Part shown: positions 5,836-35,560 of the stretch, one piece after another | How the letters are laid out: the number at the start of each line of letters is the position of its first letter | How positions within the stretch are numbered: position 1 is the stretch's first letter | Assembly: GCA_002694685.1 (NCBI GenBank) | Contig: NZMW01000001.1 | Coordinates: forward strand, 434,001-498,000 | Source: Balneola sp. | Lineage (GTDB): Bacteria; Bacteroidota; Rhodothermia; Balneolales; Balneolaceae | DNA length: 64,000 nucleotides | Direction of reading: 5' to 3' | Notes under the pieces: generated by a model | What the model was told of the DNA's origin: nothing | The model's input: only the letters and a program-made list of their open reading frames with translations | Database searches by the model: none | Made by a program: the position numbers and the translations under genes

Positions 5836-5918
5836 GTCATGCTGAATTCATTTCAGCATCTTGCGAACGACTCATATATTGTGGGCTCACTCAGATCCTG
5901 AATCAAGTTCAGGATAAC
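5836..5918. repeat. composite palindromic element (two hairpins), GTCAT...GATAAC
   Basis: Two perfect 8-bp hairpins lie 35 nt apart: ATGCTGAA/TTCAGCAT (5839-5846 with 5852-5859) and ATCCTGAA/TTCAGGAT (5895-5902 with 5908-5915). The element ends at the stop codon of the IPP isomerase gene. A second copy lies inverted at 7634-7707. It sits in the 191-nt gap between two isoprenoid genes and could also act as a 3' end former for the isomerase transcript (inference). Confidence 0.75.
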
Positions 5919-7504: not shown

Positions 7505-7547
7505 ATATGTAATGACTCAAGTAGATCACCATCTACCCACCCCAAAG

Positions 7548-7575
7548 ACATCCTGAGGATACCTCCGAAGGATCT
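7548..7575. repeat. solo copy of the repeat that frames the GIY-YIG gene
   Basis: On the minus strand this 28-nt site reads AGATCCTTCG, G, AGGTAT, C, CTCAGGATG, T. It differs at only three positions from the left-hand repeat of the GIY-YIG unit at 34988-35020. It is a solo copy some 27 kb away from the nuclease gene. Confidence 0.7.
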
Positions 7576-7633: not shown

Positions 7634-7707
7634 GTCATCCTGAATTTATTTCAGGATCTGAATAAGCCTCGATGCTTTTCTTAAGTGCTGAACTAAATTC
7701 AGCATGA
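7634..7707. repeat. composite palindromic element, inverted copy of 5836-5918
   Basis: Hairpins ATCCTGAA/TTCAGGAT (7637-7644 with 7650-7657) and TGCTGAA/TTCAGCA (7686-7692 with 7698-7704) are bounded by GTCAT and ATGAC. Read on the minus strand the order of hairpins and the boundary bases match the element at 5836-5918. It lies directly downstream of the SDR gene and could serve as its 3' end structure (inference). Confidence 0.75.
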
Positions 7708-7717
7708 CGACAGTGGT

Positions 7718-34843: not shown

Positions 34844-34987
34844 GTAGATGATCTTGTGATCTTAAGAAAGAGATAAGTATAAGGAATTTATCCAAGAACC
34901 GAATTACAGTATGGATAAGATATGATTAAAATAAGGACGTAGAAGAAGTCAAAAATCACCTTTAAAACTCATATGCTAAGCAAAAGG

Positions 34988-35020
34988 AAAGATCCTTCGC
35001 AGGTATGCTCAGGATGACTT
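34988..35020. repeat. left inverted repeat of the GIY-YIG unit
   Basis: 33 nt beginning AAAGATCCTTCG, then CAGGTATG, then CTCAGGATGACTT. It is the inverted partner of 35360-35392 (26 of 33 positions identical after reverse complementing). The TGA stop of the GIY-YIG gene (35009-35011) lies inside it, so the repeat supplies the last codons of the protein. Confidence 0.8.
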
Positions 35021-35341
35021 AGGAGGTTGAGTTTTATTTGGAGGCCATTCTCCTAGCACTTCTTTATTTAAAAAATTCCAACTTGGGTTTATTTGGCTAA
35101 CCAAATCTTCTTTCCACTTTCTTTTCTTGCCCTTTATTCTCTTTTCAGCCTGAATAGCTTCATGCATTGAAGGAAAAGAATCATACCAGATTAAATTAAA
35201 GCAATAATACCTGCCAGCAAATGACTTTTGCGATCCCCTTTCTAAATAATGTTCCACGATCCGCCTTCGCAGATCATTGGTTACTCCAACGTAAAGTACC
35301 TTTCTGCCTGGGTTAGTTACGATATAAGTATAGGCTGCCAT
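35009..35341 (-). CDS. small GIY-YIG nuclease-fold protein framed by inverted repeats
   Basis: A 110-residue stand-alone GIY-YIG domain (UPF0213/YhbQ-like). The YIV...YVG core reads YTYIVTNPGRKVLYVGVT, the catalytic Arg lies in NDLRRRIVEH, and the metal-binding Glu in IQAEKRIKGKKRKW. It lacks any extra DNA-binding domain. The C-terminal PPKSS is encoded by the left repeat, which also provides the stop. The ATG lies 18 nt inside the right repeat. No neighbouring gene is within 160 nt on either side, so repeat-gene-repeat forms a 405-nt unit. In vivo function is unknown; single-strand or structured-DNA cleavage is the family expectation. Confidence 0.88.
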   Translation of the reverse strand: MAAYTYIVTNPGRKVLYVGVTNDLRRRIVEHYLERGSQKSFAGRYYCFNLIWYDSFPSMHEAIQAEKRIKGKKRKWKEDLVSQINPSWNFLNKEVLGEWPPNKTQPPKSS

Positions 35342-35359
35342 ATCAAAAACATAATAAAA

Positions 35360-35392
35360 AAGTCATTCTGAGGGTACTCCCGAAGAATCTTT
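35360..35392. repeat. right inverted repeat of the GIY-YIG unit
   Basis: 33 nt beginning AAGTCATTCTGAGGGTACTCC and ending CGAAGAATCTTT. Its reverse complement agrees with 34988-35020 at both 6-base and 7-base ends and at the CTTCG and CTCAG cores. It lies 18 nt upstream of the GIY-YIG start codon. Confidence 0.8.
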
Positions 35393-35560
35393 GCCACAAA
35401 ATGATTGGGGTAGTTACATTGAGCACTACAGGATTTGCATCAAAATTTGACTAAGAAAGCATTCCATGCTTCGCTAAAGTAGATATTATTGTCAGTATGG
35501 CTAGATATAGATTATTCGGGAGGTATTAGACAATAAACTAGGTAAAGGAGATGACTATTA

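Follow-up and report, generated by a model that had tools for sequence, protein, structure and literature searches.

How does a small nuclease gene come to lie between two copies of a palindromic repeat, and what ties the one to the other? The question is raised by a stretch of 64,000 nucleotides from Balneola sp. (the window, in what follows), in which a small standalone GIY-YIG nuclease gene of 110 amino acids, starting with ATG, occupies positions 35009-35341 on the reverse strand and is framed by imperfect inverted repeats of 33 nt. The first-pass annotation had seen here a possible mobile repeat-gene-repeat unit, parallel to REP/RAYT systems and of a kind not firmly described. In our reading, the window gene codes for an Ssn-like GIY-YIG nuclease that has a REP family of its own, and the gene comes and goes between REPINs; this genome (G000) holds at least seven nuclease/repeat pairs, of which the locus is one.

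The gene and its protein

The window protein scores 61 bits against the Pfam GIY-YIG model PF01541 (cut-off 22.6), which places it in the GIY-YIG superfamily, and it carries the conserved residues Y6, Y17, G19, R27, H31, E66 and N85, five of which (Y6, Y17, R27, H31 and E66) are invariant in 19 proteins. Its AlphaFold2 model has a mean pLDDT of 93, and the top structural match of this predicted fold in the PDB is the UPF0213 protein 1zg2, followed with weaker scores by HIGLE, Slx1, UvrC and I-TevI. A profile search of PDB sequences also leads to 1zg2 (E 3.5e-14), and UPF0213/YhbQ proteins (1zg2, 1ywl) are the nearest solved structures by both sequence and fold. Their genomic context is different, however: the YhbQ-like genes seen here lack REPs and mostly lie beside tRNA genes. 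No solved Ssn was found among the PDB sequence matches, no NCBIfam model matched the protein, and a scan of genome contigs with the protein gave a single distant match, at 34% identity. With GIY-YIG homing endonucleases of the I-TevI type, the window gene shares the catalytic fold and the occurrence of gene-bearing and gene-less alleles of one site. Unlike them, it consists of a single domain, has neither an intron nor a separate DNA-binding domain, and has dispersed repeats, rather than one allele, for its sites.

Is this gene alone in its genome? A Pfam search for GIY-YIG domains returned 11 genes, namely UvrC, a 284-aa protein and nine small ones, and seven of the nine have palindromic repeats on both sides. 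The flanking repeats of these seven are mostly of the form GTCAT...GATC and represent several sequence classes, one of them common to two related genes, with a variant at a third gene. The repeats beside L026 (G000:C12:20322), ATTCCCGCGCAGGCGGGAAT, conform to ATTCCC(N8)GGGAAT, the dRS3 pattern of Neisseria (PMC3898611).

The two small genes outside the repeat-flanked set, L027 and L030, are YhbQ-like. No repeats were found in the flanks of L027, and L030 (G000:C4:219868), which contains an in-frame TGA, has a tRNA-Gly gene on one side and an incomplete copy of it on the other. More generally, the YhbQ-like genes L030, L055, L057, L056, L178, L195, L186, L198 and L054 repeatedly adjoin tRNA genes (Gly, Leu, Asn, Pro, Val), and several have a partial or second tRNA copy on the opposite side. 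They seem to form a GIY-YIG group of their own, associated with tRNA genes, and, given these neighbors and the lack of REPs, we have set the group apart from the REPIN system. GIY-YIG genes that lack such repeats, which the first-pass annotation would have counted against a link between gene and repeat, belong largely to this different subgroup.

The repeats around the gene

The left repeat (34988-35020) and the reverse complement of the right one (35360-35392) are identical at 26 of 33 positions, compared with a best 33-nt inverted match of 21 in 300 shuffles of both boundary zones. The inverted repeats first described are therefore borne out, and so is their placement, with the stop codon and last codons of the gene (AAG TCA TCC TGA) inside the left repeat and a gap of 18 nt between the right repeat and the start codon. 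To what do these repeats belong? The right repeat, on the reverse strand with its hairpin core at 35362-35390, is the inner arm of an upstream REPIN, R1 (35360-35555, reverse strand), which is best conserved over 35360-35479 and has a decayed outer arm. R1 matches the lone REPIN of the congener G007 in the orthologous gap between mutL and a glycosyltransferase gene (79% identity over 122 nt, E 8e-19), and its gene-strand start, GTCATC, lies five bases past the mutL stop codon, as does that of the solo REPIN of G007. The left repeat, also on the reverse strand and reading GTCATCCTGAGCATACCTGCGAAGGATC on the gene strand (hairpin core 34990-35018), is the inner arm of a downstream REPIN, R2. What is left of R2 on that strand, at 34973-35018, is this arm and the first interior bases, the outer arm being lost; over 26 nt, this remnant agrees at 88% with the REPIN that stands alone at the orthologous site of G007 (E 6e-5).

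As judged from these alignments, the window locus is a REPIN-gene-REPIN arrangement in which two direct dimers, both partly decayed, show their inner arms as the visible inverted repeats. R1 is detectable only by comparison with G007, and R2 only as an inner arm with a few further bases. The notion of a repeat-gene-repeat unit thus holds insofar as the gene is bracketed by its own palindromes, but what flanks it are whole direct REPIN dimers and not terminal inverted repeats. For this same reason, we rejected the idea of a composite transposon bounded by simple terminal inverted repeats.

The repeat family in this genome

A lone repeat of the same class (GACATCCTGAGGATACCTCCGAAGGATC) lies at 7547-7575 on the reverse strand; the first-pass annotation had noticed it at 7548-7575, and it is real, with GAC in place of GTC at the tag. 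Over the 3.95-Mb genome, the strict motif GATNCTTCG-N4..14-CTCAGNATGAC has 23 copies, compared with zero for a reversed-pattern control, and 21 of the 23 lie outside ORFs of at least 100 aa. Solo repeats do adjoin unrelated genes, which had been named in advance as a point against the unit, but this is as expected of dispersed REPs. Most repeats of this genome are paired with a copy in the opposite orientation 47-84 nt away; in other words, they form head-to-head, REPIN-like dimers, with a REPIN size of about 75-170 nt.

In its fold, the arm has five plus three base pairs that enclose a 2x2 bulge, its loop is 4 nt long, and the GTC tag stays outside the pairing. The stem is shown by covariation across the aligned copies, for which only the three stem pairs left free by the search pattern were used: among 39 distinct repeats, base pairing is kept in 38 for pair 4/23, in 37 for 10/17 and in 37 for 11/16, a level equaled by none of 2000 shuffles per stem pair. 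Within the tag GTC is constant, and the base preceding it is A at both window arms and C or T in other classes. The window arms end in GATC-T and have no CCA-like 3' tail.

These features recall the CGTC-tagged REPs described by Di Nocera et al. (2013), Neisseria dRS3 included, which have an unpaired CGTC (or TGTC) tag at one end, 8-9 bp stems starting with AT and loops of 4-5 nt, and which occur mostly as head-to-head dimers (PMC3733652). Shared with them are a GTC tag beside an 8-bp stem that starts with AT (here 5+3 bp, covarying), the 4-nt loop and the mostly head-to-head, intergenic dimers; in contrast to them, the arms found here lack the first-base C as well as the CCA tail, and their stem is split 5+3 by the 2x2 bulge. 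For CGTC-type REPs, Neisseria dRS3 and Rickettsia RPE among them, these authors found no dedicated enzyme (PMC3733652), whereas the repeats described here flank a GIY-YIG gene.

The window also holds repeats of a second class. A dimer, GTCATCCTGAATTTATTTCAGGATC ... GCTGAACTAAATTCAGCATGAC, at 7634-7708 (no strand assigned) resembles the repeat flanking the GIY-YIG gene L024 of the same genome, and a single arm, GTCATGCTGAATTCATTTCAGCATC, is found at 5836-5861 on the forward strand. Both consist of REP arms of the GTCATCCTGAA..TTCAGGATC type, like those around L024.

Relatives and the phylum

Does the arrangement extend beyond this locus? Our sample comprised 78 small GIY-YIG genes from 38 genomes, 70 of them Ssn-like. 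In the majority of the Ssn-like genes the flanks are direct copies of the whole dimer, that is, a GTCAT arm, an interior and an ATGAC arm, then the gene, then the same again. Cognate direct flanks score at least 46 in 49 of the 70, compared with 0.4% of unrelated upstream/downstream pairs, and direct or inverted flanks score at least 40 in 55 of the 70, compared with 0.7% of unrelated pairs; the placement of GIY-YIG genes within repeat pairs, which the first-pass annotation had proposed to count in relatives, is thereby upheld. The automatic test gave no strong flank signal for 15 of the 70, the window gene included, which falls under the direct-repeat threshold because its REPINs have decayed. 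In the clade of the window gene, GTCAT is found at the stop codon in eight genes, and in seven of these the repeat-derived TCATCY-TGA provides the last two serines and the stop.

A comparison of repeat sequence with nuclease phylogeny, likewise suggested at the outset, gave a clear outcome: flank similarity between genomes climbs with protein identity, a score of at least 36 being reached in 1-2% of pairs below 50% identity and in 86% of those above 70%. On these alignments, repeat class follows nuclease clade, and the repeat changes with the nuclease.

Of 296 genomes across the phylum, 90 have the repeat motif and 23 a close nuclease homologue (E below 1e-25). For family f1, the median number of repeats is 13.5 with a close homologue and 0 without one (p 2.7e-4, in a test that does not correct for phylogeny). 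The small GIY-YIG genes of more distant families lie between hairpin repeats of other kinds, for instance CGTCATTCTGAGCGAAGCGAAGAATC in G233. The CTTCG/CTCAG motif is present in 218 copies in G039 and in 103 in G267, neither of which has a small GIY-YIG gene. Repeats can therefore endure, or multiply, in a genome with no such nuclease of its own, and these counts reject an exclusive dependence of the repeats on a resident enzyme. The GIY-YIG proteins of the two genomes are only UvrC-type and other long ones.

Gene-bearing and gene-less sites

Gene-less sites, whose absence from close strains would have spoken against mobility, do exist in congeners, and polymorphism of REPIN sites is shown by the orthologous regions compared. 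At the window site, between mutL and the glycosyltransferase gene, G000 has REPIN-gene-REPIN, G007 a lone REPIN, and G006 a 7-nt gap with nothing in it; no repeat of the window class was noticed there in G001, G005, G008 and G003. At the site of the clade-I gene L040, REPIN-gene-REPIN is found in G007 and G005, and one REPIN without the gene in G001 (with flanks 93-96% identical) and G000. Flank matches put the genes of G002, G009, G008 and G004 at this site as well, and six congeners therefore retain a gene there. Losses alone could explain the gene-less L040 sites.

Further sites vary in a similar manner. At the L112 site, G007 has REPIN-gene-REPIN and G001 one REPIN, 97.5% identical to each of the two G007 copies over 120 nt; at the L109 site, the unit of G007 corresponds to a gap of about 30 nt in G000 and to unrelated sequence in G001; and at the L059 site, the unit found there in G007 corresponds to degraded traces at best in G001 and to a related repeat in G000. 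The lone REPIN of G001 orthologous to the L112 site of G007 (L152, G001:C1:349300-352800) carries an inserted transposase-like ORF, putatively of IS110 type. The intergenic spot of the L112 site has different REPIN classes in different congeners (L156 in G000:C3 and L157 at the end of G005:C8), which suggests repeated turnover at one place.

The G000 copy is found only at mutL, while six congeners keep theirs at the L040 site. Relocation of the window gene from this shared ancestral site is suggestive, but the gene may also be an older paralogue, and the protein tree does not separate the two histories.

Discussion

What process could bring about such an arrangement? The explanation we favor, and consider somewhat better than an even prospect, is that of a nuclease/repeat pair, in which the GIY-YIG enzyme cuts its own REP hairpin and its gene homes into, and is lost from, REPINs. 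Namely, the single-domain nuclease would recognize the hairpin form of its own REP, with the 5'-GTC tag and the stem starting with AT, and would cut it, most likely as single-stranded or extruded DNA, for example in DNA entering the cell or on the lagging strand. Between genes, the repeat normally exists as a head-to-head dimer, the REPIN, and the nuclease gene lies between two direct REPINs. Its gain would then be a homing-like entry into a lone REPIN, by cutting and subsequent repair from a gene-bearing copy via the shared REPIN, and its loss a recombination between the two REPINs that leaves one behind. The architecture of these loci, the covariation of the stem, the joint variation of repeat and nuclease across clades, and the alternation of lone REPIN and REPIN-gene-REPIN at orthologous sites are shown by the genomes compared, and what we infer is cleavage, single-strand specificity, and homing with its direction; that the nuclease mobilizes the repeat, as first proposed, is in the same manner conjectural.

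The closest known enzymes are the Ssn nucleases. A 2025 study in Nature Communications reportedly describes site-specific, single-strand GIY-YIG nucleases with cognate repeats, the NTS/dRS3 of Neisseria; the Neisseria Ssn enzymes are said to cut single-stranded copies of a dispersed repeat, thereby affecting transformation, and to have many homologues. The systems have in common a small single-domain GIY-YIG protein and a dispersed cognate palindromic repeat, both of which are found for the window gene, and one gene here even has a dRS3-fitting repeat. In the present case, by contrast, the repeats are of another class, there are several pairs per genome, the gene lies between two direct REPIN dimers and its presence varies at REPIN sites; also, cleavage is here something we infer. 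The earlier remark that no firmly described system of this kind was known thus needs qualifying: the resemblance to CGTC-tagged REPs (PMC3733652) and the Ssn enzymes reported in 2025 mean that this kind of enzyme and repeat is not wholly undescribed. That said, we found no paper joining GIY-YIG proteins with REPs in the literature searched, the 2025 Ssn paper being outside it.

Could the window gene be an Ssn in the published sense only? If so, it would cut its repeat in incoming single-stranded DNA and tune natural transformation with no mobility of its own, the repeats would be kept as a regulatory or recombination site, and the gene-less sites would be ordinary deletions between direct repeats. 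The role reported for Ssn in Neisseria speaks for this, as do the dRS3-like flanks of L026 and the L040 site, where a gene common to six congeners is missing in two and losses are the simplest account; the gene-less sites could, in fact, all be losses. On the other hand, maintenance does not readily account for direct REPIN flanks or for a gene whose REPIN site differs from congener to congener, and we regard this narrower alternative as less likely than not, if the strongest of those considered.

Another possibility is that the repeats owe their spread to a different enzyme, a RAYT or some other transposase, and that the GIY-YIG gene is a passenger or parasite of that system. With REP/REPIN and RAYT systems, the loci studied here share an enzyme gene flanked by its own palindromes and lone dimers dispersed between genes. 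In place of an HUH/Y1 tyrosine transposase, however, they have a GIY-YIG nuclease, the REPINs on both sides are direct, and the tag is GTC instead of GTAG. Accordingly, the parallel first drawn with REP/RAYT stands for the architecture, but neither an HUH/Y1 transposase gene nor a GTAG tag is present at the window locus. Spread by another enzyme would be in line with the wealth of copies in G039 and G267, which have no small GIY-YIG gene, and with the link between GTAG-type REPs and RAYT transposases (PMC3733652). Against it, a search by Di Nocera et al. for transposase genes with CGTC repeats on their flanks was negative (PMC3733652), and the repeat sequence shifts with the GIY-YIG clade; we consider this account improbable. 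Finally, that the repeats are transcription terminators or chance palindromes beside the gene would agree with their being mostly intergenic hairpins, yet it is hardly credible in view of the identity between the window repeats and the number of motif copies, both well beyond their controls, the conserved GTC tag, the matching long interiors, the clade-specific repeat sequences and the contradicting association across genomes.

Returning to the nuclease/repeat pair, one may ask how far it extends. More tentatively, and with less than even confidence, we propose that GIY-YIG nucleases are dedicated mobilizers of GTC-tagged REPs across Bacteroidota, and form a second, HUH-independent kind of mobile REP/REPIN system, with the nuclease gene homing from REPIN to REPIN and up to seven pairs together in a genome. 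Such repeats bracket GIY-YIG genes in many genera, each class with its own nuclease clade, and this helps to explain the origin of a large and long-unexplained class of bacterial repeats, for which enzyme/repeat pairs have only recently been described. In this way, the origin and spread of the repeats are made directly testable, with dozens of predicted nuclease/target pairs supplied.
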